Source: Salinivirgaceae bacterium | GTDB taxonomy: Bacteria; Bacteroidota; Bacteroidia; Bacteroidales; SZUA-534 | Assembly (NCBI GenBank): GCA_016342715.1 | Contig: JAEINW010000020.1 | Span: 1 to 40,893, forward strand | Direction of reading: 5' to 3' | Length of the DNA stretch: 40,893 nt | In this document: positions 4,709-20,714 of the stretch, one piece after another | Layout of the letters: the number at the start of each line of letters is the position of its first letter | How positions within the stretch are numbered: the stretch's first letter is position 1 | Program-made: the position numbers and the translations under genes | The notes under the pieces: model-generated | What the model saw: the letters and a program-made list of their open reading frames with translations, nothing else | Told to the model about the DNA's origin: nothing | Database searches by the model: none

Positions 4709-6475
4709 ATGAAAAAACTATTTAATGGTTTCCTTTTATGGCGATTACGGCACATTAGCGACAGAAGCTTTTTGTTAATACTTAGCATTATTGTTGGTTT
4801 TCTAGCCGGACTTACTGCTTGGCTCTTAAAAACAGGTGTATTTTATATGCACAACTATTTTCGTGGAGATTTACATTTCGATCCAAAAAACTTGCGTTTA
4901 ATTGTTTACCCGCTCATTGGAATTTCATTAACGGTTTTGTTCAAAGGCTATATTTTAAAAGATTACATAAAACACAATATTTCATCTATACTGCATGCCA
5001 TTGCCAAACGTAATAGTTTGATGCGCTTACATAAAATATATTCATCTATTATAGGTGCTATATTAACCACTGGTTTTGGAGGATCTATTGGCTTGGAATC
5101 ACCCATAATTTCGTCAGGTGCTGCCATAGGTTCTAATATTGGAAAAGCATGTCGTTTAAACTACAAAAGCATCACCTTATTACTAGGGTGTGGAGCATCT
5201 GGTGCCATTGCCGCCATTTTCAATACACCCATTGCAGGAATTGTGTTTGCCTTGGAAGTACTGCTATTAGATTTAAATCGCTTTTCATTAATTCCTTTAT
5301 TAATGGCCTCGGTTAGTGGAGCCATAACCACCGAGTTGCTCTTTGCCGATGAAATATTTTTTGAATTTAATATAGCACAACCCTTTATGGTAAAGTATCT
5401 CGGATTCTATATTTTATTGGGAATAATTGCAGGGCTTGTATCGAGTTATTTTACAAAAGCCTATACTGCCATTGAAGATATCTTTGAAAAAATTGAAAAA
5501 AAAAAGTATCGCTTATTAATTGGAGCACCAGCATTGGGGCTGCTCATATTTATTTTTCCTGCATTTTATGGCGAAGGTTACGATGTGATAAAAGCCATGC
5601 TCGCTGGAAATGCTGACATGGTTTTTACCGATAGTATATTTGCTTCATGGGTTGATTCTGCATGGGTTTTTGCCGGGTTCTTTTTGGCGCTTATTCTACT
5701 TAAAGTAATTGCCACAACTATTACTATAGGCGCTGGAGGCATTGGTGGAATATTTGCTCCATCGTTATTTACGGGAGCCATTCTTGGTTATTTATTTGCA
5801 TGGACAAGCAACAGCTTAGGAATTGCTGACTTATCGGAAAGCAGTTTTGCATTGGTAGGTATGGCCAGTGTATTGGGAGGTGTGTTACAAGCGCCACTCA
5901 CCGGGATTTTTTTAATTGCTGAAATTACCAGTGGCTATGAATTAATTGTTCCCTTAATGTTAGCCACCACCATATCGTATGTAACCACAAAATATTTAAG
6001 CGCTCACTCCATAATAACCATGCAACTTGCTAAAAAAGGCGAATTAGTTACCCATCATAAAGACAAGGCTGTTTTGCATTTCTTACATTTAAAAGATTTG
6101 GTGGAAACCGACTTTTTCCCCATTAATGAAAATGCTACCCTAGAAGGATTAATTAAAGCCATTCCCTTGTCAAAACGAAATATCTTTCCGGTAATAAATA
6201 ACGATGGTTATTTAATTGGGATCGTACTATTGGATGATGTTCGAGAAATCATGTTTAACTCAGAATATTACACTACAAGCATATTGAACTTAATGCACAT
6301 GCCACCCGCCATAATTGATATTACCAGCCATATGGAAGAAGTGATGCAAAAATTCAACGATACCGAAGCTTGGAACCTTCCGGTTTGTGAAAAAGGCCGA
6401 TATATTGGATTTGTGAGTAAATCGAAACTATTCTCGGCCTATAGAAGCCAATTAATGGATATTTCAGAGGAATAA
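4709..6475 (+). CDS. ClC-family chloride channel with CBS pair, paralogue
   Basis: This 588-residue anion channel/transporter is a clear paralogue of the divergent neighbour at 2742-4526, sharing the N-terminal WRL(K/R)HI segment and the whole domain layout. The gating glutamate is E130, in GLESP, where the usual Gly after Glu is Ser. GIFAP is at 347-351. The proton-glutamate position is again Val (V184 after E183), arguing for channel behaviour. The region of motif 1 has lost the GxGxP pattern (KHNISS at 88-93), which in known ClCs supplies a central chloride-coordinating serine, so selectivity may differ from its neighbour. Two CBS domains occupy about 450-585. No terminator is evident downstream. 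Heteromeric assembly of the two products is possible but not shown. Confidence 0.92.
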   Translation: MKKLFNGFLLWRLRHISDRSFLLILSIIVGFLAGLTAWLLKTGVFYMHNYFRGDLHFDPKNLRLIVYPLIGISLTVLFKGYILKDYIKHNISSILHAIAKRNSLMRLHKIYSSIIGAILTTGFGGSIGLESPIISSGAAIGSNIGKACRLNYKSITLLLGCGASGAIAAIFNTPIAGIVFALEVLLLDLNRFSLIPLLMASVSGAITTELLFADEIFFEFNIAQPFMVKYLGFYILLGIIAGLVSSYFTKAYTAIEDIFEKIEKKKYRLLIGAPALGLLIFIFPAFYGEGYDVIKAMLAGNADMVFTDSIFASWVDSAWVFAGFFLALILLKVIATTITIGAGGIGGIFAPSLFTGAILGYLFAWTSNSLGIADLSESSFALVGMASVLGGVLQAPLTGIFLIAEITSGYELIVPLMLATTISYVTTKYLSAHSIITMQLAKKGELVTHHKDKAVLHFLHLKDLVETDFFPINENATLEGLIKAIPLSKRNIFPVINNDGYLIGIVLLDDVREIMFNSEYYTTSILNLMHMPPAIIDITSHMEEVMQKFNDTEAWNLPVCEKGRYIGFVSKSKLFSAYRSQLMDISEE

Positions 6476-7211: not shown

Positions 7212-10200
7212 TTAATTTTTGAAAATCAGATCGGCGCCAATGGTACCCACTAATTTCTCAACATATTGTTGGCTTTGTACTTCTTTTAATTTTTCTTTGG
7301 CATAGCTCAATTGATCCTTCAGCTTCAAATTCATTACAATGGATGCATTCATAGCTTGGGTATTGAATTGGCTAATATAATTTACATGCTTTTTCCAAAG
7401 TATAATATCTTTTTGCTGTTTGTTTTTTAAACGCTCCTTGTACCACGGACTTTGTAATACATTTTCGCGTTTAAATATTTCGCGTAATTCAGCATTGGCC
7501 AGATCTTTGTTTTCGTAGTGACCATATGCCATAATATGAAGCAATATTTTTAGTGGTGGAATGGCACTTTCAATACTTCCATCTTCAAAATATTGCAGAG
7601 CCGATTTCTGCTGCGCTTCAACAATGTTATTTATTCCATCCACAAAGTCTTCCATGCTTTGCAATTCGGGTTTTAACATTTCGTTGGTAAATACCATCGA
7701 TGGTTCTTCAAATATTCTTCCAAAATGATTAAAGACAAAGGTTTTGGTTATTCGATAGCCCAAACGACTTGCTAAAACCTTTTGGCCTTGGTATTCAAAA
7801 TCTTCCAGCTTTTCAATACTGCCATTGGCAATCATATTTTTTGCCTTTTTTTGTTCATTAGTTAAACGACACCACAGTTCAGGAATGAGTATGCTAATGT
7901 CGTGATCGAAACGATTGTTGGGACCCACATGGCCTGCAGCGGTTGAAAAAGCCTCATAACCCGTTAATATACTCGAAAGCAAGGCATTGTTTAAATCGGT
8001 GGTTGGAACCAACATATTGAAAGGTCCTTTGGTTAAGGCTCCTTCGGAACCTGCTCCCGTGGTTGATGGCGATTTTCCGGTTAAGCTCGATATATAGTCC
8101 ATAAACAATTCGGGCATTTCCTGATAATGAATCGGATTATAAACACTCAATGGACGAATTCCTTTGGCTTTATCCGACGGATTATTTCTTCTACCGGGCA
8201 GCACATTGTTTACCGGATAATGCACGGGTTTATCAGCAGGTACTTGTCTAAAGAAGCGGGTTCCTACCTTTGCCAAATAATTATCGATGGGGTTCGAGAA
8301 ATCGGGGCGCTCTTGCAAGTACCTTGGGTTTTTCGAACGACTTCCATCTGCTATAATTCGGGTGTGTGACGGAGAAATAAAGTAATTTCCCGTTTTATCT
8401 TTGGCACCTTTCTTAATTATTCGTTTAATAGGATCGGTGTATTGGTCGAAGGTGATGGCATTTTCAACCATTTCCTTTCCATCGGCAACCGATAAAGGCT
8501 GGTAATTTGTGGTAAAGGTGTTTTGTTTTGAAAGATCGGATTCTGCTTCCTTATCGTATCCACGATTTACTGCTTCATCGGGGCGTTGAAAAAAGCGATA
8601 CTCACAGTTTTCAACCATCTTTACACTTTTATTCTCGTATTTTGGATTTAAATATTCCAATTGCTTTGCCGGAACGGTAATGGTGGCTGAAATATCATCT
8701 TCCATTTGAATTTTTGCTGCTGCAACAAAGTCGGGGCGTAAGGAATGTACATACCACGAATTATCTTGAGTAAAGCCCACTCGAAGGAAGGATTTGCTAA
8801 TTTTACGACTGTTTAACATCAATGAATGTCCGGGTCGGCCGTTAATTTTATCAATGGTAAAGTACTTTTTCCAATCATCTTTAAGCTCAATATTTTGGCT
8901 TAGTTTTTTAAGTAAAAAAATGATTCCCTTTACATAATCGGGAATGGAATTCACGTATTTGTTGTAGGCCTGAGTATGTCCTTCAAAAGGCGTAAGTAAT
9001 TTTATTACCGACCCCAATGAACGTTCATTACTAAGTAAATGACGCGAGGTATGATTATCGAGTGTTGGTTCTTTCCATCTTTTGGAGAAGTCGTAGGTCA
9101 AAATCTCGTCAATCATGGCAAAGTCTTTTTCAATATCATCAATAAAGAAGTTGCTGTAAATAATTGCATTTAACAATGACTTTGAAATTTCCGATTTACC
9201 TCCGCCTGAAACGGTGCTTGGTTTGTGTAAGAAGGTTCCTTCGGCATAGGTTAAAATTAAGCGCCATTCGGGAGCAAAGGGATGTTTCTCCATGTGAACT
9301 TTGTATCCGCTGGGCAGTACATAGTAATGATCGCGTAATAATTTTATTTGTTGCGTTTGTTTATTATGCTTCCAAGTAATGGATGATTCGTACAAATTTA
9401 TTTTCGCATCTTCGGGAATATAAATAAGGTTTTCATGGTTTTTATCTACCCCGTAGTTTTCGGGCATCAGGTGCATCATTTGCCCATATTCTTTTACAAC
9501 ATCCGCAAATTTGTAGGTAGTTCCCAAATTCTTCGATAGTTTTTCACCATCGAAAGCATCGCCCAAGTTCCTGCGTACAAATGCCAGAGTGCCTCCCGAA
9601 TGCTCTTCTTCAGCCAATCCAAACATATTGGCAGAATAGCTTATTTGGGTTTTAATTTCTTTTTTAGAATATCCGAAATAGTTGTCGGCAATTAAAGTGA
9701 TGATTACTCCCGATTCATCTCTGCAACTGATTTTAAAGGCTGAACCTTCGTTGTAAAGTTCATCTTTGTGTTTCCAGCACATGCCATCTTTTCGCTGACG
9801 TTCGGTAGCATCTTCAAAATGAGGCAATCCAATTTCTTTTTTCTTTAATTGGGTAAGCTGAGGAGCCAGAATAACACATCCGGTATGCCCGGTCCAATGT
9901 TTAATGTCAAGGGCTGCATCGTTTTGTGCCAGATGCGGATCACCGGCATTGCCAAAAATAGACTCCACAAAATCGAGGTTGCTTACAAATAATCCGGGAG
10001 CAAAGAAACGAACTTCCATTGATTTTTTCTCCGTTATTCCAGCTACTTCAGGGCAAACTGTAGGACGAAGCAACAAGGAAGTGAAAATCTGAGCAGGCTT
10101 GATCATTGATCCTGTAAACGGAAGAGTCAACATCTCAGCCGGAGGATTTAAGGCGGCATGTAGCAAATGTGCAAAAGCAATTTTTGGTACTGCCTTTTTA

Positions 10201-10682
10201 TCCGGGGGAATGGGTAGTCCGCCTTTTACAATATGAAACGATCCACTGGTTGTTCTTCGGTCGTGTATCGGATTATGCAGCACTCCTTGTTTAATTCTAT
10301 AGGAGCTTACATATTTGTTTATATATTCGTTTTTGTCGGGTGGCAAACTAACTTCGCGACCAATTCCTGGTTTATCCAATACGAAAGTATCATAAGGAAG
10401 GTTCAATGATTTATCAAACTCAATATCTTTTAAATAACGGTTAATAAAATCCTGAATTCTTTGGTCAGAAGGATTAGTAATGGTGTTGGAAAGCAAACGC
10501 ATTTTTTCCTTATAGTTGTTTAGCAAACTTTCCGATAAGTTTATAAATTCCTTTTCGTTTCCATCCACAGAGCTTTCAAAAATGGGTTGCCCCATGGATG
10601 CTAGTTTTAAATTTATAAAACGAATAATGTCTTCTTTATTTCGCTCGCTTATTCTACTTGAACTGTGATGGTTTAAGTTCAT
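7212..10682 (-). CDS. Pyrophosphate-dependent phosphoenolpyruvate carboxykinase
   Basis: This 1156-residue cytosolic enzyme is recognised as the PPi-type PEP carboxykinase (EC 4.1.1.38) known from Propionibacterium and Entamoeba. It interconverts oxaloacetate + PPi with PEP + Pi + CO2. The size fits: PPi-PEPCKs are about 1100-1200 residues, twice the ATP or GTP enzymes. Visible features include an N-terminal region with HNPIHDRRTTSG (136-147), the HLLHAALNPP segment (172-181), and a Gly-rich phosphate-binding loop SGGGKSEIS (492-500) at the place of the PEPCK kinase-1 loop. There is no signal peptide. The start at 10680-10682 is the first ATG of an Asn/His/Ser-rich tail. The gene is monocistronic, with a strong terminator. 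It could let the cell use biosynthetic PPi for anaplerotic CO2 fixation or run in the gluconeogenic direction. The identification rests on remembered family sequence, not on a search. Confidence 0.85.
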   Translation of the reverse strand: MNLNHHSSSRISERNKEDIIRFINLKLASMGQPIFESSVDGNEKEFINLSESLLNNYKEKMRLLSNTITNPSDQRIQDFINRYLKDIEFDKSLNLPYDTFVLDKPGIGREVSLPPDKNEYINKYVSSYRIKQGVLHNPIHDRRTTSGSFHIVKGGLPIPPDKKAVPKIAFAHLLHAALNPPAEMLTLPFTGSMIKPAQIFTSLLLRPTVCPEVAGITEKKSMEVRFFAPGLFVSNLDFVESIFGNAGDPHLAQNDAALDIKHWTGHTGCVILAPQLTQLKKKEIGLPHFEDATERQRKDGMCWKHKDELYNEGSAFKISCRDESGVIITLIADNYFGYSKKEIKTQISYSANMFGLAEEEHSGGTLAFVRRNLGDAFDGEKLSKNLGTTYKFADVVKEYGQMMHLMPENYGVDKNHENLIYIPEDAKINLYESSITWKHNKQTQQIKLLRDHYYVLPSGYKVHMEKHPFAPEWRLILTYAEGTFLHKPSTVSGGGKSEISKSLLNAIIYSNFFIDDIEKDFAMIDEILTYDFSKRWKEPTLDNHTSRHLLSNERSLGSVIKLLTPFEGHTQAYNKYVNSIPDYVKGIIFLLKKLSQNIELKDDWKKYFTIDKINGRPGHSLMLNSRKISKSFLRVGFTQDNSWYVHSLRPDFVAAAKIQMEDDISATITVPAKQLEYLNPKYENKSVKMVENCEYRFFQRPDEAVNRGYDKEAESDLSKQNTFTTNYQPLSVADGKEMVENAITFDQYTDPIKRIIKKGAKDKTGNYFISPSHTRIIADGSRSKNPRYLQERPDFSNPIDNYLAKVGTRFFRQVPADKPVHYPVNNVLPGRRNNPSDKAKGIRPLSVYNPIHYQEMPELFMDYISSLTGKSPSTTGAGSEGALTKGPFNMLVPTTDLNNALLSSILTGYEAFSTAAGHVGPNNRFDHDISILIPELWCRLTNEQKKAKNMIANGSIEKLEDFEYQGQKVLASRLGYRITKTFVFNHFGRIFEEPSMVFTNEMLKPELQSMEDFVDGINNIVEAQQKSALQYFEDGSIESAIPPLKILLHIMAYGHYENKDLANAELREIFKRENVLQSPWYKERLKNKQQKDIILWKKHVNYISQFNTQAMNASIVMNLKLKDQLSYAKEKLKEVQSQQYVEKLVGTIGADLIFKN

Positions 10683-11357
10683 AATTATTAAAATTATTAA
10701 GTGTTAAATAACTTCCTGTAAAGTACTTGCTTTTTAAAAGATGCTTGCAAGGATTATTAGAGGAAGTAAATTTACACAATATGAAAGCAAAAGGAAATTA
10801 TATTTATAAAATTAAAACCATTCTGCGCAATATTTTAATAAAGTGACGTTTTTGGTGTGAATTTATTTGCAATGAATCATTGACAATTAGCCTGTTATCG
10901 TACTACCTTTTTAGGCTATCGTTTGCACAGAATAGGAATTTCGTAGCAGTTTTGAGACCTCTGAATTAACACGCTTACTTCATGATAAAAAGAAGGTATT
11001 TTGCTTTCAACCTAAACTCGACATAAGAAACTTTAATAGAATGCTAATAATTATGTGTTTATATGATTTAGAACTGTAGTATCAAGCCTGCCTGGTGGCG
11101 GTAGGCAGGCTTTGTACTTGATACTATAAGACAGATTTCAAAAAAGATTAAATACCAGATATTTGTATCGAATTTTATTTCGAACTCAGGTTTTTAGCTT
11201 TCCATGGCACATTTTATCGTACAAAGCTCAAGTTTAGAATATGGCTTAAAAAGCATACTATACATTCAAGACCTTGCTATTTAAGGCGTAACAGTATTTC
11301 AATCTGGCAAAAGTCAAATGGACAGTTATCGAAACGAAAAGATGGCTAAGGTAAAAT
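10683..11357. other. Intergenic region upstream of the PPi-PEPCK gene
   Basis: This stretch should contain the PPi-PEPCK promoter close to 10683-10800, but I see no convincing TAnnTTTG box. The rest carries one large hairpin (11078-11125) and otherwise featureless AT-rich sequence with no plausible gene. Confidence 0.5.
11078..11125. repeat. Large interrupted palindrome with CCTGCCTG core
   Basis: An outer stem AGTATCAA/TTGATACT encloses an inner stem GCCTGCCT/AGGCAGGC, with a seven-base bulge on the right side. There is no adjacent T-run. The inner part belongs to the same family as 635-653 and 743-759. Confidence 0.6.
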
Positions 11358-11388
11358 TAAAAAAACCGCCTCAAAATGAGACGGTTTC
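11358..11388 (-). terminator. Terminator of MFS transporter 1
   Basis: AAACCGCCTC pairs with GAGACGGTTT (one G-T pair) around an AAAAT-type loop. On the minus strand it ends in a run of T. It is nearly the same as the terminator of the neighbouring paralogue at 12910-12940. Confidence 0.85.
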
Positions 11389-11408
11389 TATAAATAAGTG
11401 AAATAATT

Positions 11409-12815
11409 CTATTTTTGAATATTTGGTAATTCCAAACCATAACCTTTTTTGCGGTCTTCTGCTTTAAGCAGAAAAGCAAATAATAAGGCTAAAACACCAC
11501 AAGCTACAAATACCAACATGGGAATTGTATAGTTATAATGAGCTCCTTCAACTCCTTGCTGAATTTGCGCAGTTACTCCAGGATTCACTTTATCGAGAAC
11601 CCAACCAATTAACATTGGAATAACCATTAATCCAATATTTTGAATCATGAAAATAACAGCAAAAGCAGAACCTAAGTAACGATCTTCAACAATTTTAGGA
11701 ACAGAAGGCCACATAGATGCAGGTACTAATGAAAAACCTATACCAAGAACAATCATACCTGCCCAAGCTACAAATGTAGTAGCAGGAGCCAATGCAAATG
11801 CTAAGTGTACAATTATTAATAAAATTGAACCAAAAATCATAATACTAGCTCCTTTTCCTTTTTTATCAAGGAATGTTCCAAATAATGGAGTCAATGCCAT
11901 AGTTCCTAAAGGCAGTAAACCTGCTATAAATGCACCTTGATCGACACTAGTACCAAATCTATTAACAAATAAATCGGCAGCATATTTCATAAATGGAAAA
12001 ACCGCAGCATAAAATAACACACATAACATTGCTATGTACATAAAAGCCCTATTAGTAAATAATTTACCAATATCAGAAATTTTAAATTCATCTTCTGGTT
12101 CGGTTACTTTTACGTCATCACCGGTTTGTTTGTCTAACTTCACATCCATAATTGTATAAACAAGGAAAGTAAGCAAACCAATTACTAATAATAAAATTGC
12201 GAATGCAACTGGACGTGTAATAATTTTTTCTGCACCAGCAACACGAGTAGAAAACCAAAATGCTCCTAACATACCAAAACGAGCGGTAGCCATTTCAAGA
12301 CCCATAGCTAATGCCATTTCTTTACCTTTAAACCATTTTACAATAGTTTTAGATACCGTGATGCCGGCAATCTCAACTCCAACACCAAAAATAGCATAAC
12401 CAAAGGCGGCCATTTTTACCGATGGACTATAATTGGGAAAGAATGAACCTAGAAATTCATAGCCAAAGCCTCCACTTACAAAAGCATCGGTTAATGCATA
12501 GTAATTAATTAATGCTCCAACTACCATTAAACTAATAAATACAGTTCCTGTAAATCGAATACCTAATTTATCAAGTATAACTCCACCAATAATTAGAAAT
12601 AAGAAGAATACATTAAATAAGGAATAAGCTCCTGTAAAAAAACCATAGGAACTATTATTCCAATCTAAACTTGCATTTTCAAGTAACATTGGCTTTAATG
12701 GTGACAATACATCGGCAAATAGATACCCTGTTAACATTGTAAATGAAATTAAAGCCAAAACAACCCAACGAGCAGTTTTAGATTCACTTAATGTTTGTTT
12801 TATTTTTTCTGTCAT
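11409..12815 (-). CDS. MFS transporter, MFSD1-like, probable dipeptide carrier (copy 1)
   Basis: This is a 468-residue inner-membrane carrier with about 12 hydrophobic segments. Diagnostic segments: LDKLGIR after TM2 (81-87), FGVGVE (143-148), WFKGKEMALAMG (161-172), SMWPSVPKI (367-375), LGSAFA (381-386) and QNIGL (392-396). These resemble matching segments of human MFSD1, a lysosomal carrier reported to move dipeptides, including its GIGGES...SWFKGKE and ALWP...QLGTAYG...QNLGL stretches, more than those of sugar or oxalate carriers. It is the paralogue of the gene at 12962-14401 and the last of five same-strand genes with PepD and DPP IV, which supports peptide uptake. It has its own terminator. 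A generic MFS annotation is certain; the dipeptide substrate is inference. Confidence 0.88.
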   Translation of the reverse strand: MTEKIKQTLSESKTARWVVLALISFTMLTGYLFADVLSPLKPMLLENASLDWNNSSYGFFTGAYSLFNVFFLFLIIGGVILDKLGIRFTGTVFISLMVVGALINYYALTDAFVSGGFGYEFLGSFFPNYSPSVKMAAFGYAIFGVGVEIAGITVSKTIVKWFKGKEMALAMGLEMATARFGMLGAFWFSTRVAGAEKIITRPVAFAILLLVIGLLTFLVYTIMDVKLDKQTGDDVKVTEPEDEFKISDIGKLFTNRAFMYIAMLCVLFYAAVFPFMKYAADLFVNRFGTSVDQGAFIAGLLPLGTMALTPLFGTFLDKKGKGASIMIFGSILLIIVHLAFALAPATTFVAWAGMIVLGIGFSLVPASMWPSVPKIVEDRYLGSAFAVIFMIQNIGLMVIPMLIGWVLDKVNPGVTAQIQQGVEGAHYNYTIPMLVFVACGVLALLFAFLLKAEDRKKGYGLELPNIQK

Positions 12816-12909
12816 ATTTTATTGTTTGAAAATTTTATTTAAAAAAATGCCTCGAAAGTAGTTAAATTAATTATTTAAGAGTCGATAATATGGAACTATT
12901 ATAAAACAC

Positions 12910-12940
12910 AAAAAAAACCGTCTCAATAGAGACGGTTTCT
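12910..12940 (-). terminator. Terminator of MFS transporter 2
   Basis: AAACCGTCTC pairs perfectly with GAGACGGTTT around an AATA loop. On the minus strand eight T follow. It separates the two transporter genes into units that can be transcribed independently. Confidence 0.88.
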
Positions 12941-12961
12941 TCTATAAAATAGTAATGTTTT

Positions 12962-14401
12962 CTATTTTTGAATATTTGGTAATTCAAGTCCGTAACCTTT
13001 TTTCTTGTCTTCAGCTTTTAATAAAAATCCGAAAACTACAGCAAGAATAGTAAGAGCAACAAAAATTAACCATGTTGAAGAATAATCAAACATTGGTATC
13101 TCCCCTGAGACTCTAAGCGCTTGAATTTTATCAGTTATTTCACCTACAGCTACCCCCTGCTCTCTAAGCATACTAATTGCAGCTTCTGTTTTTTCGTTAA
13201 CTCCAGGATTAGTTTTATCTAGTACTACTCCTAATAAAATAGGTACTAACATTAGCCCAATATTTTGCACGTAAAAAATTAAAGCATATGCTGAACCTAG
13301 TTGCTTTTCAGGTATAATTTTAGGTACCGATGGCCACATTGCTGATGGTACTAATGAGAAAGCAATTCCTAAAAGTACAACCGCAAAAATCGCAACCCAA
13401 GTTGCTGTTAAAGCTGGTATATAGAATATAGTATGAACAATAACTAGTAAGACTGCTCCCAGAATCATCATGGATGCACCCTTACCCAATCTATCATAAA
13501 GATATCCAAATAATGGCGTTAATAATATGGTGCCAAATGGTAAAATGGATGGAATATCACCAGCTGTTGATGGATCAATACCAAATTTATTTACCATTAA
13601 ACCCGATGAAAATTTATAGAATGGGAAAACAGCTGAGTAAAATAAAAGACAAAGAATTGCAATATACCAAAAACCTTTGCTAGTAATAATTACTTTAATA
13701 TCAGATATTTTAAAAGGTTCTTCGGCTTCAGCTTCGTCGTCAATTTCTTTATCTAATTTAACATCCATTACACTATAAACAATGAAAAGAATTAATGCTA
13801 TACTAAGTGCAATTGCACCAACCAAAACAGCTGTAGGAATATCAAATGCTTTAGCTATACGTGGTGAACCAAAAAGAGCAATAAATGATCCAAAACGGGC
13901 TAATGCCATTTCTGTTCCCATAGCTAGTGCCATTTCTTTTCCTTTGAACCATTTTACAATAATTCTTGATACTGTTATTCCTGCACCTTCGGCACCAACA
14001 CAGAATAAAGCAAAACCTGCAGCTGAAATAAATACTCGTTTATCGATTCCAATAATAGTTGACCCAATTTCAAAGTCTCCGGCAAATGCATAGTATTTAA
14101 TAATTGCGCCAAGTATCATAACAATACCTGCTCCAATTGAAGTAAACTTAATGCCCATTTTATCTAAAATGATACCTGCGAATATTAACATAAATGCAAA
14201 TACATTTAAATAACCTTGTGCACCAGTTACTATTCCCCAATCGGTTCCGCTCCATCCATATGTGCTTTGAATAAGAGTTTGTAATGGAGAAAGTACTTCC
14301 ATAAATGTGTAAGCGATTAGCATGGTAACCGACACTAGAATTAAAACAAACCAGCGTGCTCCTGCATTATCCCTTAAGCTTGATTTTATAGCTTCTGTCA
14401 T
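12962..14401 (-). CDS. MFS transporter, MFSD1-like, probable dipeptide carrier (copy 2)
   Basis: This 479-residue membrane carrier is paralogous to 11409-12815; the two share the N-terminal MTE(A/K)IK start, the VKWFKGKEMALAMG segment (149-162 here) and an almost identical tail, LLKAEDKKKGYGLELPNIQK. It has an insertion before the last helix pair (about 405-432, Glu/Gly-rich) that the other copy lacks, so the two may differ in substrate range or regulation. The stop of the upstream gene pepD is only 66 bases from the start, with a terminator hairpin in between that may allow partial read-through. Family resemblance to MFSD1 is as described for copy 1. Function as a dipeptide carrier is inferred from that resemblance and from the adjoining dipeptidase. 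Confidence 0.88.
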   Translation of the reverse strand: MTEAIKSSLRDNAGARWFVLILVSVTMLIAYTFMEVLSPLQTLIQSTYGWSGTDWGIVTGAQGYLNVFAFMLIFAGIILDKMGIKFTSIGAGIVMILGAIIKYYAFAGDFEIGSTIIGIDKRVFISAAGFALFCVGAEGAGITVSRIIVKWFKGKEMALAMGTEMALARFGSFIALFGSPRIAKAFDIPTAVLVGAIALSIALILFIVYSVMDVKLDKEIDDEAEAEEPFKISDIKVIITSKGFWYIAILCLLFYSAVFPFYKFSSGLMVNKFGIDPSTAGDIPSILPFGTILLTPLFGYLYDRLGKGASMMILGAVLLVIVHTIFYIPALTATWVAIFAVVLLGIAFSLVPSAMWPSVPKIIPEKQLGSAYALIFYVQNIGLMLVPILLGVVLDKTNPGVNEKTEAAISMLREQGVAVGEITDKIQALRVSGEIPMFDYSSTWLIFVALTILAVVFGFLLKAEDKKKGYGLELPNIQK

Positions 14402-14426
14402 ATTAAAAAAATTAGTTAATTATAAT

Positions 14427-14455
14427 TAAAAAAGGAAAGCAGCATTAGCTTTCCC
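14427..14455 (-). terminator. Terminator of pepD
   Basis: GGAAAGC (14434-14440) and GCTTTCC (14448-14454) form a 7-bp stem. On the minus strand it is followed by six T. It lies between pepD and the MFS copy 2 start. Confidence 0.75.
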
Positions 14456-14467
14456 GTTTATATTTTA

Positions 14468-15928
14468 TTATTTTTTAGGTATGTTTTTTAAGGTTTCAAT
14501 CAACCAATTGTAGAATTTACCTACCGATTCAATATTCACTTTCTCATCGGGTGAGTGAGGAAAACGTATAGTTGGTCCAAATGAAATCATATCCCAATTT
14601 GGATAAACTCCACCTAATAATCCACATTCTAATCCGGCGTGTATTGCTTTAATTTCAGGAATTATACCATGCATTTTCTGATAAGTTTCCTGCATTGTTT
14701 TTAAAATTGCTGAATTCATATTTGGTTTCCAACCTGGATACTCACCGTTAAATTCAACACGAGCTTCAGCCAAACGGAATACATTTCCAATGGAATTAGC
14801 TAAATCGTCTTTTGCAGAATCAACTGACGAACGAAGCAAACACTGAACAACAACTTCGTTATCAATTAATTTTACCACAGCCAAATTGCTTGATGTTTCA
14901 ACCAAACCAATCATATCTTGACTCATGCGAATCACACCATTTGGACAACCATAAACAGCTTTGGTTAAACGACTTTGAACGCCATCAGAAATCATTTTTT
15001 CTGGCATGTCTGTTTTTTCAATGCTTATTTTCACTCCTGGATCAGCCGATGCTAATTCTGCTTTAATTATTGATTCAAAACCAGCAACATAAGCCGCCAA
15101 TTCGGCTTCCTTGTTTTCAGGAAATAAAATAGTTGCAAATGCCTCGCGAGGAATAGCATTACGTAAACTTCCCCCTTGAATATCGGTTAAATGCACCCCA
15201 TATTTTTCGTTTGCCATATAAATAAAGCGAAAAATAATTTTGTTTGCATTGCCTCTTTCCAAAGGAATATCCATACCAGAATGGCCTCCTTTTAAACCTG
15301 TAACATTCACTTTGTAAGCTACATGATGAGGAGGAATTCCTTTAAGTTTTGGGTCAAAATAAAAATTACCATCAATACCACCAGCACAGCCAACGTAAAG
15401 TTCGCCTTCGTCTTCCGAATCCAAATTCATTAGAATATCTCCGTCTAAAACATCTGCTTTTAATTCAAAAGCACCTGTCATTCCGGTTTCTTCGTCAATA
15501 GTAAACAAAGCTTCAATAGGACCATGTTCAATCACTTTTGATGCTAAAATTGCCATTGATGCAGCAACACCCATTCCATTATCAGCTCCTAAGGTAGTTC
15601 CTCTGGCAGTTACCCAATCGCCATCAACATAGGCATCAATTGGATCTTTAGTAAAATCATGATTTATATCGCTATTAGCCTGTGGAACCATATCTAAATG
15701 CCCTTGAAATACGACTCCTTTTCTATCTTCGTAACCTGGAGTAGCAGGCTTTTTAATAATTACATTGCCACAATGGTCAACAATGGTTTTAAGACCTAAA
15801 TCTTCACCAAATTTTTTCATAAACTCAATACATGCAGCCTCATGTTTTGATGGACGTGGAATTTGAGTTAATTGATAAAAATATTCCCAAACTGCTTTTG
15901 GTTCTAAATTTCTAATTTCTTCGCTCAT
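14468..15928 (-). CDS. pepD: Cytosolic dipeptidase, aminoacyl-histidine dipeptidase type (M20)
   Basis: This 486-residue zinc metallopeptidase of family M20 hydrolyses a broad range of dipeptides in the cytosol. Metal and catalytic residues are in place: GHLDM (H77, D79), the bridging Asp in TLGADNG (D116), DEETG (catalytic E146 and E147), an acidic NLDSEDEG block (169-175) and a late His in FPHSPDE (H458). HAGLECG near 431-437 is also typical. The length equals the E. coli enzyme (485). There is no signal peptide, so it is intracellular. An AAGGAG ribosome site 7 bases upstream fixes the start. Downstream are two MFSD1-like carriers, and upstream on the same strand is a DPP IV, suggesting it splits dipeptides imported from the periplasm. 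Confidence 0.95.
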   Translation of the reverse strand: MSEEIRNLEPKAVWEYFYQLTQIPRPSKHEAACIEFMKKFGEDLGLKTIVDHCGNVIIKKPATPGYEDRKGVVFQGHLDMVPQANSDINHDFTKDPIDAYVDGDWVTARGTTLGADNGMGVAASMAILASKVIEHGPIEALFTIDEETGMTGAFELKADVLDGDILMNLDSEDEGELYVGCAGGIDGNFYFDPKLKGIPPHHVAYKVNVTGLKGGHSGMDIPLERGNANKIIFRFIYMANEKYGVHLTDIQGGSLRNAIPREAFATILFPENKEAELAAYVAGFESIIKAELASADPGVKISIEKTDMPEKMISDGVQSRLTKAVYGCPNGVIRMSQDMIGLVETSSNLAVVKLIDNEVVVQCLLRSSVDSAKDDLANSIGNVFRLAEARVEFNGEYPGWKPNMNSAILKTMQETYQKMHGIIPEIKAIHAGLECGLLGGVYPNWDMISFGPTIRFPHSPDEKVNIESVGKFYNWLIETLKNIPKK

Positions 15929-15935
15929 ATTATGT

Positions 15936-15941
15936 CTCCTT
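15936..15941 (-). promoter_or_regulatory. Strong Shine-Dalgarno site for pepD
   Basis: AAGGAG lies 7 bases before the pepD ATG on the minus strand. Such a site is uncommon in Bacteroidota and is not seen before neighbouring genes. Confidence 0.65.
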
Positions 15942-16032
15942 AATTATAATTTAAATTTCAAAGTTCCGAATTTAATAAAATTTATCATGCATGTTCAATC
16001 AATTCACATAATTAACAACAGCATGTTCTTTT

Positions 16033-17922
16033 TTATAAACAATATTTCGATAAATTAAATGGTATTTTATCTGTTCCACCATAAATAAATGGGTTTCCTG
16101 GCCTTGTATAAAATGAAAAATTATCTATTCGATATTTGGCCTTATTTGGATTCCAAATAAAAAATTTAACATGAGTTTCTTTTTTAAGCCGAATATCAGG
16201 AATTGGAATTGTGAAAAACACTTGATTTGATATTGAATCGCTAAGTATAAAATCATTTATTTCCATAGCACGCCAATCAATAATTTTACCATTTTTTTCC
16301 ATTGATGAAACTATTTTTGCTCCTCCAATAGTATCCATAGGTGTAATACTTGCTGATAATTCAATAAAGTTATTCTCCGAAAAAATTAAGGTATCCACCA
16401 TGGCTTCAATTGTTCCAATATATTCATTATTAGTTATCAAAGAACTGTCGCTATACCCTGCAACTAATTCTTTTTCATAGTTAATAAATGGGCAGGCTTC
16501 GGTATATTTATGCTTGCTCTTTTTTAACAAAAAGGCTTCTCCAGCAAGTGTATATTCTTTTTCTACTACCTCAGGATAATAAGATAGAGCAATTTGCAAT
16601 AGGGTTTGATTAATTATTTCAGCTCTTCCGAAATAAAAATATTCTTTATCTGATTGCTGCAATAAATTTATAAAATCACTTTTTTTATTCTCCCGGCTCC
16701 AATAAATGGTATGATTGTTTTTAAAATTATGTTTTGCATTATAATATTCATCAATTTCGGGATAGGTAAACTTTACGACTAACAAACTATCAGGGTCAAT
16801 ATTTTTTTGCCAATCAATCAATGTTTCAGCCACACATTTGTAACGTTGATTATTAAAAAACTCCTGATGTCGTCTTTCTAAAAATAAGGAAGCTGATCCG
16901 ACCAGCAATAATACTATTGTTAATAACAACTCGTTTCTGAAAGTCGTTTTTTTAATAAACGAAGCTAAAAATATCAACAAAAACGGAAAAGAAAAATACA
17001 ATACTCGCTCATGAATAACATTGCTTACAAAATAAGAATATGTAAATCCTATGGCAATGGGAATAAAAAACCAAATGATTGAAATCCTACGATACCTTTT
17101 ATATATGGATGGTTTATTCTTTGCAAAAAACACAAGGATTGGAATAATTACTAATAAAGCAATGATCCATGAATTATGAAACACATACGATATATACTGA
17201 AAAAAATAATTCAGCTCAAAATTTCCTAACCAACCTTCAATTCCTCCTTTTGATAATTGATAAAAGAAAATATTTAAGTGGGGAGCAAACAATATAAAAA
17301 TACTTAGCCCTGCAAGAATATATTTGAGCCAGTATTTTTTTTCTATAAGAAAAATTCCTGTTATCCAAACAATAGCCACAAACAGCAAGCTAAAATAATG
17401 CGTATAGGTACATACTGATGCTGCAAATACATAAACCAACAAATTTTTCAGGTTGAATTCCTTATGAATAATCTTATCCCAAAAGTAAACCATCAGGAGA
17501 ATAAATGGAATTCCAAAGCCGTACATGCGAGCAATTTGACTTTGTGCAACTGCATATTGTAAAAAAGCCATAAAACTGGCAGCATATAATGCAGAAGTTG
17601 AATTAAACCATTTTTTTGTAATTTTATAAACCATAAACACAGCAAAAATTCCAAAAAGAATAATGGGGAATTTAACTGCCATCTCGCTGCTACCAAATGC
17701 TTTGGTATAGTAATAATAAAATACCTGAGTACCTACTGGATGATTATCCAATTCCTTCATCCCAATTTGAATTACATCATGTAAATTTTCATAATCGAGC
17801 CTAAATAAGGTACTAAATTCATCATGTGTAAATGCCTGATCAGAGAACTTATAAAATCTAAGACCTGTGGCAACCAGAAGTATAATTAATAATGGAAGTA
17901 TTGATTTATTAAATCGCTGCAT
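16033..17922 (-). CDS. GT-C (family 39-like) membrane glycosyltransferase
   Basis: This 629-residue polytopic protein resembles bacterial ArnT/PMT-type glycosyltransferases that transfer a sugar from a polyprenyl phosphate on the periplasmic face. The first periplasmic loop has the hallmark acidic pair THDEFST (D34, E35), and an HPVGTQ-like stretch follows near 62. About ten to twelve hydrophobic segments run to residue about 350. The remaining 280 residues form a soluble, probably periplasmic, domain rich in beta strands that I cannot assign. The ATG overlaps the stop codon of the DPP IV gene by one base (TAATG), so the two are almost certainly translationally coupled. The acceptor is unknown. 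Confidence 0.85.
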   Translation of the reverse strand: MQRFNKSILPLLIILLVATGLRFYKFSDQAFTHDEFSTLFRLDYENLHDVIQIGMKELDNHPVGTQVFYYYYTKAFGSSEMAVKFPIILFGIFAVFMVYKITKKWFNSTSALYAASFMAFLQYAVAQSQIARMYGFGIPFILLMVYFWDKIIHKEFNLKNLLVYVFAASVCTYTHYFSLLFVAIVWITGIFLIEKKYWLKYILAGLSIFILFAPHLNIFFYQLSKGGIEGWLGNFELNYFFQYISYVFHNSWIIALLVIIPILVFFAKNKPSIYKRYRRISIIWFFIPIAIGFTYSYFVSNVIHERVLYFSFPFLLIFLASFIKKTTFRNELLLTIVLLLVGSASLFLERRHQEFFNNQRYKCVAETLIDWQKNIDPDSLLVVKFTYPEIDEYYNAKHNFKNNHTIYWSRENKKSDFINLLQQSDKEYFYFGRAEIINQTLLQIALSYYPEVVEKEYTLAGEAFLLKKSKHKYTEACPFINYEKELVAGYSDSSLITNNEYIGTIEAMVDTLIFSENNFIELSASITPMDTIGGAKIVSSMEKNGKIIDWRAMEINDFILSDSISNQVFFTIPIPDIRLKKETHVKFFIWNPNKAKYRIDNFSFYTRPGNPFIYGGTDKIPFNLSKYCL

Positions 17923-20117
17923 TATAAATTGTCCTTAACAAAGTTTAACATTTTTATAAACAAATGATACCTCGTATTGCCTCCATAAATACTATGGTTA
18001 CGATTAGTATAATAAAACATTTCAAATTGCTTATCGGCTTGTACAAATGCTTCTGAAATTTCTAAAGAATTTTGCATATGAACGTTATCATCGGCCGTTC
18101 CGTGAACAATTAACAATTTGCCTTTTAGTTTATCTACATGATTAATGGGTGAATTATCATCGTAGCCTGCTGCGTTTTCCTGAGGAGTACGCATAAAACG
18201 CTCCGTATATATATTGTCGTAATATCTCCAATTGGTAACTGGTGCCACAGCTATGCCTGCTTTAAAGAAATCGGCTCCCTGAGTCATACAATTTAAAGTC
18301 ATGAATCCACCATAACTCCAACCCCAGATTCCAATTCTACCTGCATCGATATAAGCTAAACTTCCTAAATATTTAGCAGTGGCAATTTGATCAAGGGTTT
18401 CGTATTTACCCAATTGCAAATAGGTTATTTTACGAAAATCTTCGCCTCGCGATCCGGTTCCCCGGCCATCAACACAAGCAACAATATAACCATTAGCGGC
18501 CAAAACTTGCTCCCATCCCACGCCATAGCTATCTTTTACTTCCTGAGAATTTGGTCCGCTATATTGTGTCATTAATACAGGATATTCTTTTGAAGTATTA
18601 AAATCAACAGGTTTAACCATCCAGCCATTTAATTGAACGCCTTCGTCACTTGTAAATGAGAAAAATTCCTTTGGTGAAAAATTAGCACTTTCTAATTTTT
18701 TATTTAATGCAGTATTATCTTCTAAAACTCTAATTTGTTTGCCTTTTGCTTCATTTAAGGTAACAATAGTTGGTGTTGATGTGTTGGAATAATAGTTCAC
18801 AAAATATTTAAATCCACTGCTAAACACAGCATCGTTGCTACCATCTTTTGTACTCAGTTTTTTAAGACCTGAACCATCGCTTTTTACCATATAAATAGAC
18901 CGTTGCATAGGTGTTGGTTGAGCACTTTGGTAATACACCAAACTCTTTTTTGCATCATAACCCAAATATTCAGCTACATCCCAATCGCCATTTGTTATTT
19001 GCTTAAGCAACGAACCATCGGCATTATGCAGGTATAAATGCACATAACCACTTCGCTCGCTTGTATATATAAATTGCTTACCCTCATTTAAAAAGGTGAG
19101 ATTATCAAAATACTTTTCGTCAATGTATCTTTCATTTTCCTCTGAATAAAAAACATTTGACTCTCCATTTTCAGGATTTGCATATAAAAACTCCAATTTG
19201 TTTTGTAATCGGTTTTCGCGATACAAAACCAACTTTCCGTTGGGCGACCACTTAAGTCTTGGAATATACTGATCGCTTTCTTCACCAATATTTACGGAAA
19301 CAGTTTTACCCGTTTCAACATTATATGAGTGTACAGTAACTATAGAATTATCATCGCCAGCTTTCGGATATTTAAACGCTCTATTTTCAGGATATAAGGC
19401 ATTGTTTTCATAAGTTGGATACATGCCTTTAAAAACTGTCATGTTAAACATGGGCACTTGACTTTCGTCAAATTTACAATAAGCAAGATATTTTCCATCG
19501 GGCGACCAATCAAATGCCTGATTGTATTCAAATTCTTCTTCATAAACCCAATCGGGAGCACCATTAATTATTTTGTTCCATTCGCCATCTGTTGTTAATT
19601 GTGTTTCTTTTCCTGTTGCTAATTCTGAGATAAATAAATTGTTATTGCGGACAAAAGCTACTTTAATACCATCACGTGATAAGGTTGCTAAACGCTGAGT
19701 CCCTTCTTCTGAAACCGGAAAAAGTGTTTTTGTAGCAATATCCCAAACATAAAAATTTGCAGTAAAAGAGCGTCGGTAAATTCGAGTACGGTTTACGTAG
19801 AAAATTATTTTCGACTCATCGGCATTAAATTCATAATTTGAAATTGCTTTTATTTCTGGAATTCCAAAATCTTTAACATCAACCATATTCTCAATAGCTT
19901 TTCCGGTTTTATAACTATATTTTACAATTACAGAATCGCCAACTAAAGCTGAATAATGCAAACCATCATTCATTGAAGTTAACCCATCCACCGACTTTGC
20001 ATAATAGGTATAAGTCTTATAAAGATCAGCAACCGTAATGTCTTTTTTAACATTCTCTTGTGCAAACAGACAAAAGCTAATTACTGCAAATAAGCTAAGG
20101 AAGAATACTCTTTTCAT
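17922..20117 (-). CDS. Dipeptidyl peptidase IV, S9B family, periplasmic
   Basis: This 731-residue prolyl-oligopeptidase-family serine peptidase should release N-terminal X-Pro or X-Ala dipeptides. A signal peptide is visible (residues 1-19, basic start, hydrophobic core, then AQ). The N-terminal half is the DPP IV beta-propeller, including the substrate N-terminus-binding Glu cluster in DWVYEEEF (189-196). The C-terminal alpha/beta hydrolase domain has the nucleophile in GWSYGG (S601), the acid in HGTADDNVH (D676) and the catalytic His in RNHSIYGG (H708). The length matches bacterial DPP IV (about 720-730). It is the first gene of a minus-strand series followed by GT39, pepD and two MFSD1-like carriers. 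Its product dipeptides would be substrates for those carriers and PepD; this link is inferred. Confidence 0.95.
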   Translation of the reverse strand: MKRVFFLSLFAVISFCLFAQENVKKDITVADLYKTYTYYAKSVDGLTSMNDGLHYSALVGDSVIVKYSYKTGKAIENMVDVKDFGIPEIKAISNYEFNADESKIIFYVNRTRIYRRSFTANFYVWDIATKTLFPVSEEGTQRLATLSRDGIKVAFVRNNNLFISELATGKETQLTTDGEWNKIINGAPDWVYEEEFEYNQAFDWSPDGKYLAYCKFDESQVPMFNMTVFKGMYPTYENNALYPENRAFKYPKAGDDNSIVTVHSYNVETGKTVSVNIGEESDQYIPRLKWSPNGKLVLYRENRLQNKLEFLYANPENGESNVFYSEENERYIDEKYFDNLTFLNEGKQFIYTSERSGYVHLYLHNADGSLLKQITNGDWDVAEYLGYDAKKSLVYYQSAQPTPMQRSIYMVKSDGSGLKKLSTKDGSNDAVFSSGFKYFVNYYSNTSTPTIVTLNEAKGKQIRVLEDNTALNKKLESANFSPKEFFSFTSDEGVQLNGWMVKPVDFNTSKEYPVLMTQYSGPNSQEVKDSYGVGWEQVLAANGYIVACVDGRGTGSRGEDFRKITYLQLGKYETLDQIATAKYLGSLAYIDAGRIGIWGWSYGGFMTLNCMTQGADFFKAGIAVAPVTNWRYYDNIYTERFMRTPQENAAGYDDNSPINHVDKLKGKLLIVHGTADDNVHMQNSLEISEAFVQADKQFEMFYYTNRNHSIYGGNTRYHLFIKMLNFVKDNL

Positions 20118-20369
20118 AATATGTTGTTTTATTGTTTTTTTTTGATTCGCTAATATATTACATTTTTATAAGGTCGCATAAAAAGACCAAAGATTACATA
20201 TGAAACTAAACTTTCCAATGATTTTTATTGGGTTTCTGAAAAATTTTTCCCAATTTTTAACTGTTTTTTTCAGAAACAAAATTATTTGATTAATCAGGCC
20301 ATAAAATTTTAAATAAGCCTTGCAAAAAATGAATGCGGATTTATTTGAAAAAACTTTTGAACAAACAAT

Positions 20370-20714
20370 TTATATTTCTTTTTTACTTGATTTTGTCAAG
20401 GAATTATAATCCAATGCTAATTGAATAAAGTAATCTAAATCTTCATCCATATCATATCCAATAGGTTCAATCATAACAAATCCTTTCATGGGACGTCCCG
20501 TAAAAACCATTCGTTTACAGCCCTCTTTCTGAAGCGCCTCAGCAACATTGTCGGGGTGTATGCGAGCCATCATTTCGTTTTTAATAATACCCACACACAT
20601 TTTATCATCAACCATAAATGTAAGTCCCCCAAACATATTTTTTTCGTAGAATTTTATTCCTCTGCTGTTTAAAGTTTGAACAATTCTATCTTGTAAAAAT
20701 TCGTTATATGCCAT
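20370..20714 (-). CDS. TfoX/Sxy N-terminal domain protein
   Basis: This is a small cytosolic protein of 114 residues built of one TfoX N-terminal domain. In gamma-proteobacteria TfoX/Sxy activates competence with CRP, but stand-alone N-domain proteins in Bacteroidota have no settled role. The family pattern is visible: KNMFGGLTFMVDDKMCVGI near 24-42, then MMARI and a GRPMKGFV turn. The start is set at ATG 20712-20714 because the protein then begins MAYNEFLQDR like relatives. An ATG 57 bases further upstream (20771) would add a 19-residue leader with no family match. It stands alone between the DPP IV gene and a sensor kinase, both on the same strand. Confidence 0.85.
   Translation of the reverse strand: MAYNEFLQDRIVQTLNSRGIKFYEKNMFGGLTFMVDDKMCVGIIKNEMMARIHPDNVAEALQKEGCKRMVFTGRPMKGFVMIEPIGYDMDEDLDYFIQLALDYNSLTKSSKKEI

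Follow-up and report, generated by a model that had tools for sequence, protein, structure and literature searches.

MFSD1 is a mammalian lysosomal dipeptide uniporter (PDB 8r8q) in which Glu150 and Arg181 form a clamp around the dipeptide; its ligand residues were named from mutation and simulation, and transport is described as abolished or reduced in Y56 and W373 mutants (PMC11252000). Accounts of its substrate range differ, dipeptides of all kinds being reported in one (PMC11252000) and cationic ones in the other (PMC10990142). Some Bacteroidota are described as subsisting largely on dipeptides, and in Porphyromonas gingivalis periplasmic dipeptidyl peptidases (DPPs) feed dipeptide import across the inner membrane, for which POT and OPT transporters are the routes described (PMC8048996). 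Among the titles listed from open-licence PMC papers, none concerns a bacterial MFSD1; a table in one bacterial genome paper names a gene mfsD1 (PMC3078919).

The locus compared here with these systems belongs to a Salinivirgaceae bacterium (GCA_016342715.1) and occupies positions 11409-20117 of the window, by which we mean the whole stretch analysed (contig JAEINW010000020.1, positions 1-40,893; 40,893 nucleotides). It had originally been predicted to comprise five open reading frames (ORFs) on one strand, encoding a signal-peptide DPP IV with its full catalytic triad, a GT39-like protein coupled to it, a cytosolic PepD and two tandem carriers resembling MFSD1. All five ORFs are present and all are on the minus strand:

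17922-20117, minus strand: DPP IV, a dipeptidyl peptidase of class S9B, 731 aa, predicted to be periplasmic or at the surface; PF00930, PF00326 and PDB DPP IV match
16033-17922, minus strand: GT39-like (PMT_2) membrane glycosyltransferase-like gene, 629 aa; PF13231 at 2e-10
14468-15928, minus strand: PepD, an M20 dipeptidase of 486 aa, predicted to be cytosolic; TIGR01893 and 3mru alignment
14433-14455, minus strand: terminator-like hairpin of 8 pairs in the gap between PepD and carrier A (hairpin scan)
12962-14401, minus strand: carrier A, MFSD1-type MFS protein, 479 aa; sole PDB phmmer match MFSD1 (E<=1)
12907-12946, minus strand: terminator-like hairpin of 18 pairs in the gap between carriers A and B (hairpin scan)
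11409-12815, minus strand: carrier B, MFSD1-type MFS protein, 468 aa; sole PDB phmmer match MFSD1 (E<=1)
11361-11389, minus strand: terminator-like hairpin of 13 pairs beyond carrier B (hairpin scan)

Ten terminator-like hairpins were found in 10600-20500, compared with 4.8 (sd 2.2) in shuffled sequence. With hairpins parting PepD from carrier A and carrier A from carrier B, and another after carrier B, the genes share one direction without clearly forming a single operon, and one common transcript is unproven; a scan for sigma-70 promoters was uninformative (47 found, 48.6 expected).

Domains, N-terminus and active-site motifs agree in identifying the DPP IV. It carries PF00930 (4.3e-95) and PF00326 (4.4e-57), begins with a signal-peptide-like segment (judged by eye) and matches a solved PDB DPP IV at 6.6e-213, with the Ser/Asp/His motifs GWSYGG, DDNV and NHS aligned, which we take to be the catalytic motifs of DPP IV. 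The identity of PepD is also borne out, with 597.3 bits against TIGR01893 (cut-off 343.75) and an alignment to 3mru (1.1e-158) in which the metal and catalytic residues, as named in PMC6271292, are conserved. The GT39-like gene does overlap the DPP IV stop as TAATG, and its product exceeds the PMT_2 cut-off while falling below that of EpsG. Its membership of the module did not hold up, however, as no homologue of this protein was detected in the 80 contig loci (E 1e-10) or in regions L183-L242 (E 1e-8), and we therefore dropped the gene from the module as probably a bystander, judging from the carrier neighbourhoods searched.

Carriers A and B share 49% identity, and their resemblance to MFSD1 is highly significant. 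With phmmer, MFSD1 was the sole PDB match at E<=1 (9.7e-32 for carrier A and 1.2e-28 for carrier B). A bacterial profile, A1 (25 rows, 6 of 31 ORFs, namely L015, L017, L019, L020, L023 and L025, being omitted), matched MFSD1 at 1.8e-81 and the runner-up FLVCR2 at 1.3e-8, a gap of 73 orders of magnitude to the next PDB protein. In the reciprocal search, MFSD1 matched only A (2.6e-35) and B (3e-32) among the 18 MFS-type ORFs of the genome at E<=10. A tree of 67 chosen rows (51 from the family and 16 from other MFS proteins; galactonate-, lactate- and sugar-phosphate-like carriers were represented, oxalate/formate and POT carriers were not) separated MFSD1 and 50 bacterial carriers from the 16 others with support 90/95, a split weakened by long branches and an unsettled bootstrap. 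Within it MFSD1 groups, with support 93/70, with the carriers that come from other classes of the phylum, and the outgroup row L178, sugar-phosphate-like though itself below the TIGR00881 cut-off, falls outside the MFSD1 side. Both the profile searches and the tree, which the original prediction had called for, place the carriers with MFSD1. Neither carrier matched the POT model PF00854 at E 0.001, and hhalign of profile A1 with a neighbouring POT gave a probability of 20% over 68 columns, which rules out a POT assignment. The curated models likewise rule out the oxalate/formate and sugar-phosphate types, neither TIGR00890 nor the sugar-phosphate (OPA) model TIGR00881 matching A or B at E 0.001, and for sugar-phosphate-like proteins the tree does so as well; one distant relative scored 26.5 bits against TIGR00890 (cut-off 374.85). 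On these sequence comparisons the carriers are true relatives of MFSD1 and the resemblance is one of homology.

By alignment, the ligand residues of MFSD1 are mostly kept in the bacterial proteins. Tyr56, Glu150, Arg181, Tyr276 and Trp373 (MFSD1 numbering) are invariant in 107 of 107 bacterial rows, a set that includes both window carriers and possibly near-duplicates, and Phe280 and Gln396 are kept in 106 of them. The Glu150 and Arg181 pair, whose counterparts in carrier A are Glu138 and Arg169, occurs in none of the 16 other MFS proteins. Tyr59, Gln393 and Gln176 of MFSD1 are changed in both window carriers and Tyr365 is replaced by Phe, while Asp60 is retained in carrier B and in 96 of 105 other rows and is Glu in carrier A.

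Linkage of the carriers to peptidase genes across the Bacteroidota, also to be compared according to the original prediction, is conserved for pepD. In the order, pepD lies within 5 kb of a carrier in at least 18 of 84 genomes, counting that of the window, and in 17 of these on the same strand, where about 0.6 would be expected by chance, assuming uniform placement in genomes of 3.5 Mb. The count is a lower bound since pepD was sought among 150 places listed; 120 of 131 listed carrier places were used, and 10 of the 11 omitted were further pieces of included genes. As controls, and among the matches listed, MATE genes were near pepD in 2 of 72 genomes and POT genes in 4 of 86, three of which (G265, G269 and G299) are also carrier-pepD genomes; the rule for both was slightly different (6.5 kb from match starts to pepD ends, each list having been pared down manually to 114 genes). 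A phylum-wide sample comprised 34 regions from 34 of 40 matching genomes, those left out being the window's own, G000, and G001, G006, G011, G016 and G124. Here pepD is on the same strand and 5' of the carrier in 19 of the 33 loci with a called carrier ORF, 18 times within 285 bases. Order survey, controls, phylum sample and expectation together reject chance as the source of the linkage. On the other side, 66 of the 84 order genomes have no pepD within 5 kb among the matches listed, and 64 of the loci in the 80-locus contig set have none in the examined flank (79 loci were mapped, L053 having no called carrier ORF).

Genes for OPT, PqqD-like and M29 proteins often accompany pepD and the carrier in the phylum sample, OPT being in the carrier neighbourhood in 22 of 34 loci (as a cluster, two representatives of which were checked). 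A POT gene flanks the carrier in 12 of 80 loci. The genome of the window also encodes a POT. Contiguity of DPP IV, PepD and carrier genes extends to three genomes besides the window: in L183 and L186 they follow in that order, and in L228 the order is OPT-PqqD-PepD-carrier-DPP IV. In L195 it is carrier-OPT-PepD-POT. Among the matches listed, with all 150 places of each gene used, only 6 of 94 genomes have DPP IV and pepD on one strand and within 5 kb of each other; distances between DPP IV and carrier were taken for 8 of 120 carrier places, picked by eye for a shared contig, and are lower bounds.

Homology to MFSD1, the kept dipeptide residues and the adjacent enzymes for making and splitting dipeptides point to what is probably an uncharacterised bacterial route of dipeptide uptake. 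We consider it likely that A and B are MFSD1-family proteins of bacteria which carry dipeptides through the inner membrane, most probably into the cell. In the periplasm, dipeptides would be set free by DPP IV and by further exopeptidases, a carrier would hold the N-terminus of the dipeptide with Glu138 and the C-terminus with Arg169 (numbered as in carrier A), much as MFSD1 does with Glu150 and Arg181, and release the ligand inside, and PepD would hydrolyse such dipeptides as it can split, holding their cytosolic level low. Given a periplasmic source and a PepD sink of this kind, even a passive uniporter would run inward, and since the lysosome lumen is topologically equivalent to the periplasm, the lumen-to-cytosol direction of MFSD1 fits import. 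Proton coupling is possible, both carriers having Glu where MFSD1 has Gln176. The original prediction had the carriers importing the dipeptides made by DPP IV and PepD splitting them. MFSD1 homology and the pepD linkage favour it, but the route leading from DPP IV via the carrier to PepD is its weak part, because few genomes show DPP IV linkage and PepD is not known to split dipeptides with a C-terminal proline (X-Pro), the main DPP IV product. PepD may therefore be unable to split the X-Pro dipeptides made by DPP IV.

In 6 of 80 loci the gene immediately 5' of the carrier encodes a HutH-like lyase, accompanied in five of the six by FTCD and/or a probable HutI, and this would also fit carriers of single amino acids such as histidine, on the model of the proteobacterial proteins in TC 2.A.1.53, the class that also lists MFSD1. 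We regard that as unlikely, given that the Glu/Arg pair by which MFSD1 spans a dipeptide is invariant in the carriers, that MFSD1 itself is described as not transporting single amino acids (PMC11252000; PMC10990142), and that the partners recognised most often are a dipeptidase, transporters of peptides and further peptidases. Export of dipeptides through an overflow valve, opened when OPT or POT uptake outpaces hydrolysis, would suit a family whose mammalian member is described as a uniporter that readily reverses, and also carriers encoded beside OPT or POT importers, as many are, or in a genome with its own POT, as here; the recurrent pepD (sink) and, in some loci, DPP IV (source) would nonetheless favour inward flow and make export quite improbable.

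The fold does not discriminate among MFS proteins and was dropped as proof of family. In comparisons with a model of carrier A (pLDDT 92.5; built on alignment A4, 50 of 73 carrier ORFs), Foldseek ranked 8r8q first, whereas VIA-align did not include it among the 50 matches listed and headed its list with SLC37A4 (Z 40.1), VAChT, VMAT2 and OxlT (39.4), these four lying at Z 39-40; the Z values of many MFS proteins are tied. Transport of another solute (an organic anion, sugar acid or sugar phosphate), with only a general MFS similarity to MFSD1, could draw on the SLC37A4 and OxlT matches and on weak NCBIfam matches to SfMCT and D-galactonate carriers, but is highly improbable given that the latter score 29-40 bits where the cut-offs are 320 and 395, that the profile gap and the tree split set MFSD1 apart, and that the dipeptide clamp is missing in 16 of 16 other MFS proteins.

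Returning to dipeptide import by MFSD1-type carriers, we consider it an even call whether the Bacteroidota, and perhaps other phyla, possess in them a third class of dipeptide permease besides POT and OPT, possibly an uncoupled uniporter, with periplasmic DPPs as source, PepD as sink and often a PqqD-like partner. If so, the lysosomal MFSD1 of animals would have bacterial roots, as its grouping in the tree with carriers from the phylum's other classes would suggest. A widespread family with the MFSD1 clamp would add a dipeptide route to POT and OPT, would assign a function to proteins that match just generic MFS models or score far below cut-offs, and would supply bacterial models in which to study how the mammalian lysosomal carrier is built and coupled.

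Set against known systems, Corynebacterium pseudotuberculosis has a gene annotated by name as mfsD1, which a table of genomic islands places beside one for proline iminopeptidase (PMC3078919), and the TC 2.A.1.53 proteins, proteobacterial intraphagosomal amino acid carriers, belong to the TC class to which MFSD1 is assigned (PMC9333335). Import in P. gingivalis is by POT and less by OPT, and the text of that source has no word beginning with MFS (PMC8048996). OPT oligopeptide transporters share neighbourhoods with the carriers in the phylum sample but belong to a different family (PF03169). POT/PTR2 proteins (DtpA-type, PepT) are likewise bacterial MFS dipeptide carriers and are encoded in the flank of some carriers of the family; they are proton-coupled and belong to PF00854, which A and B do not match at E 0.001. 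MFSD1 is lysosomal whereas the carriers, tandem paralogues, are presumed to lie in the bacterial inner membrane, and it differs from them at Gln176 (Glu), Tyr59, Tyr365, Gln393 and, in carrier A, Asp60 (Glu); yet in its sequence and in the ligand residues kept, MFSD1 is like them.

As originally noted, five genes lie on one strand of the window, all of them ORFs of the minus strand, and in transcription order they are:

17922-20117, minus strand, DPP IV (first)
16033-17922, minus strand, GT39-like gene (second)
14468-15928, minus strand, PepD (third)
12962-14401, minus strand, carrier A (fourth)
11409-12815, minus strand, carrier B (fifth)

By sequence, DPP IV and PepD are both typical of their families and retain the active-site residues (PepD residues for comparison from PMC6271292). 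DPP IV and the GT39-like gene are joined by a one-base overlap (TAATG). Terminator-like hairpins were found in the PepD/A gap, in the A/B gap and 3' of B (10 terminator-like sites in the region vs 4.8 expected), so it is not clear that all five genes share a single transcript. Elsewhere in the window, a 1156 aa ORF (7212-10682, minus strand) has no Pfam family at E 0.001, and two divergent ORFs (2742-4526 and 4709-6475), their translations inspected by eye, resemble a related pair of ClC-type chloride channel proteins with CBS-like tails.

The two tandem MFS carriers are MFSD1-like by every sequence test made, which bears out the resemblance first proposed from short segments. Searched against all PDB sequences (phmmer, E up to 1), carriers A and B each matched a single protein, MFSD1 (8r8q; 9.7e-32 and 1.2e-28, respectively), and a profile of 25 bacterial homologues including both found MFSD1 at 1.8e-81 (277 bits), with FLVCR2 second-best at 1.3e-8. 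In the reverse search of 18 MFS-type ORFs of the window's own genome, MFSD1 matched A (2.6e-35), B (3e-32) and none of the others (E up to 10). A phylogenetic reconstruction (IQ-TREE, 67 rows) placed MFSD1 with 50 bacterial carriers apart from 16 other MFS proteins with support of 90/95, in a tree with very long branches for many outgroup rows and an unsettled bootstrap; within it, MFSD1 joins the branch formed by carriers of the phylum's other classes (93/70). Eight outgroup rows came from the same genome and eight via SfMCT, galactonate and sugar-phosphate models, seven of the latter scoring below those models' cut-offs. Because the tree has no oxalate/formate or POT row, those families were judged by curated models, which matched neither A nor B. 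Some carrier homologues have longer frames of about 540-560 aa (locus L006 of genome G230, and genomes G284, G320, G336, G339 and G358), that of L006 with an additional hydrophobic insert in the C-terminal half.

Foldseek with an AlphaFold2 model of carrier A (pLDDT 92.5, pTM 0.91) ranked 8r8q top (2.7e-12) and FLVCR1 behind it (9.5e-9), and VIA-align returned SLC37A4 (40.1), VAChT (40.0), VMAT2 (40.0) and OxlT (39.4), with 8r8q absent from the 50 matches listed. As MFS folds are too similar and were solved in different states, fold cannot decide the family and sequence was used instead.

The lysosomal dipeptide role of MFSD1 was published in 2024 (PMC11252000; PMC10990142), with selectivity described as a broad dipeptide range (PMC11252000) or as cationic dipeptides (PMC10990142). 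Glu150 and Arg181 are reported to clamp the two ends of the dipeptide, mutants indicate that Y56, D60, E150, Q176, R181 and W373 matter, the binding-site residues are listed, and Q176 is described as more variable (PMC11252000). We compared these residues in 107 bacterial rows (A, B, the 23 other profile members and 82 from genome-contig scan loci). Y56, E150, R181, Y276 and W373 are invariant (107/107), F280 and Q396 are each conserved in 106 rows, and N397 and L400 each in 101. Position D60 is Asp in B, Glu in A and Asp in 96 of the remaining 105 rows, and position Q176 is Glu in both window carriers and Glu (40), Gln (36), Asn (5) or Lys (1) in the 82 scan rows. Y59 is kept in 19 of 23 phylum-sample rows and not outside them, Y365 is Phe in nearly all rows, and, among the residues listed for position Q393, Gln occurs in no row. 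None of the 16 other MFS proteins has E150 and R181 together.

Carrier matches were present in 97 of 118 genomes of the order sample (E 1e-30 or better) and, at 1e-20, in 40 of 247 genomes and 34 of 122 genera of the phylum sample, the source genome included in both. A genome-contig scan confirmed at least 584 stretches, the best 80 loci being retained; the nearest among these is from Marinifilum flexuosum (87%). A few are titled as other phyla (for example Aminicenantes, Holophaga and Ignavibacteria), all being metagenome-assembled genomes with phylum per record titles only and binning taken as deposited.

Linkage of the carrier to pepD recurs across Bacteroidota and is no peculiarity of the window. 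In the order sample the two lie within 5 kb in at least 18 of 84 genomes with both (window included; the pair shares a strand in 17, with either gene first), where uniform placement would give about 0.6. For MATE genes, taken as a control, the count at a limit of 6.5 kb from a listed pepD is 2 of 72 genomes (Fisher test against 18 of 84, 0.0005), and for POT genes, under the same rule, 4 of 86. A carrier was called in 33 of 34 fetched phylum-sample regions, with pepD 5' on the same strand in 19 (gap at most 285 bases in 18). Among the best 80 scan loci, many with short flanks, 16 have a PepD homologue inside the flank, always on the carrier's strand and immediately 3' of it in 10.

Other peptide-related genes share these neighbourhoods. 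Clusters in the 34 phylum-sample regions (blastp, representatives verified by Pfam) include an OPT oligopeptide transporter (22), an M29-type peptidase (25) and, beside carrier or PepD, a small PqqD-like protein of about 120 aa (PF05402; 23), for example:

L210, 5225-5596, PqqD-like
L228, 5456-5800, PqqD-like
L240, 7837-8187, PqqD-like

A roughly 250 aa protein often adjoins the carrier (18 of 34 loci), its representative (L210, 8445-9203) having no match in a Pfam search, and a separate PqqD-like cluster lies directly 3' of the carrier in four of the best 80 scan loci (L070, 5775-6128). Of those 80, 12 have a POT cluster in the flank and five an S9 peptidase cluster near the carrier. In six of the 80 (L041, L044, L045, L046, L050 and L061, from Dysgonomonadaceae-type genomes) a HutH-like lyase is directly 5' of the carrier, accompanied in five by FTCD, a probable HutI gene or both; these carriers perhaps import histidine-containing dipeptides, or histidine. 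In separately fetched regions, L195 reads carrier, OPT, 122-aa ORF, PepD, POT, and L193 has POT directly 5' of PepD with the carrier further along.

Nearly every genome of the order carries DPP IV (111 of 118 at 1e-100), but just 6 of 94 genomes place it on one strand with a listed pepD and within 5 kb of it. Contiguous DPP IV, PepD and carrier genes were found in three further genomes, with gaps of 24 and 32 bases in L183 (same family), 173 and 137 bases in L186, and 22 to 89 bases in L228 (OPT, PqqD-like, PepD, carrier, DPP IV). The GT39-like gene, originally counted in the module, is missing from all three strips.

With homology, binding site and neighbourhood as observed traits, we infer substrate, direction and energetics: the carriers most likely mediate dipeptide permeation at the inner membrane within peptide salvage. 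MFSD1 is reported as an uncoupled dipeptide uniporter (PMC11252000). For an uncoupled carrier, a periplasmic dipeptide producer and a cytosolic consumer, roles that DPP IV and PepD would fill, would set the direction of flow. DPP IV yields mainly X-Pro and X-Ala, and PepD is not known to split dipeptides ending in proline, so a prolidase would be required for part of this flow. The predicted dipeptide salvage is favoured by homology, binding residues and pepD linkage; the exact chain from DPP IV through carrier to PepD needs care. Since the same genome also encodes a POT and a second PepD, the carriers need not be the sole route. The original observation thus holds, its interpretation is partly supported, and the carriers are best read as a bacterial branch of the MFSD1 dipeptide carriers with a conserved peptide-salvage context.

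Among the titles listed for MFSD1 and its TC number in open-licence PMC, none concerns a bacterial MFSD1, nor do passages of PMC5627054 and PMC6819133 state one. The dipeptide importers described in Porphyromonas gingivalis are POT and OPT (PMC8048996). MFSD1 is classed under TC 2.A.1.53 (PMC9333335), named after proteobacterial intraphagosomal amino acid carriers (PMC7997004), which implies distant bacterial relatives by class listing. In Corynebacterium pseudotuberculosis a gene bearing the MFSD1 name in print, mfsD1, is tabled as the neighbour of a proline iminopeptidase gene, within genomic island PiCp6, in a passage giving no function (PMC3078919), and is possibly another MFSD1-peptidase pairing.
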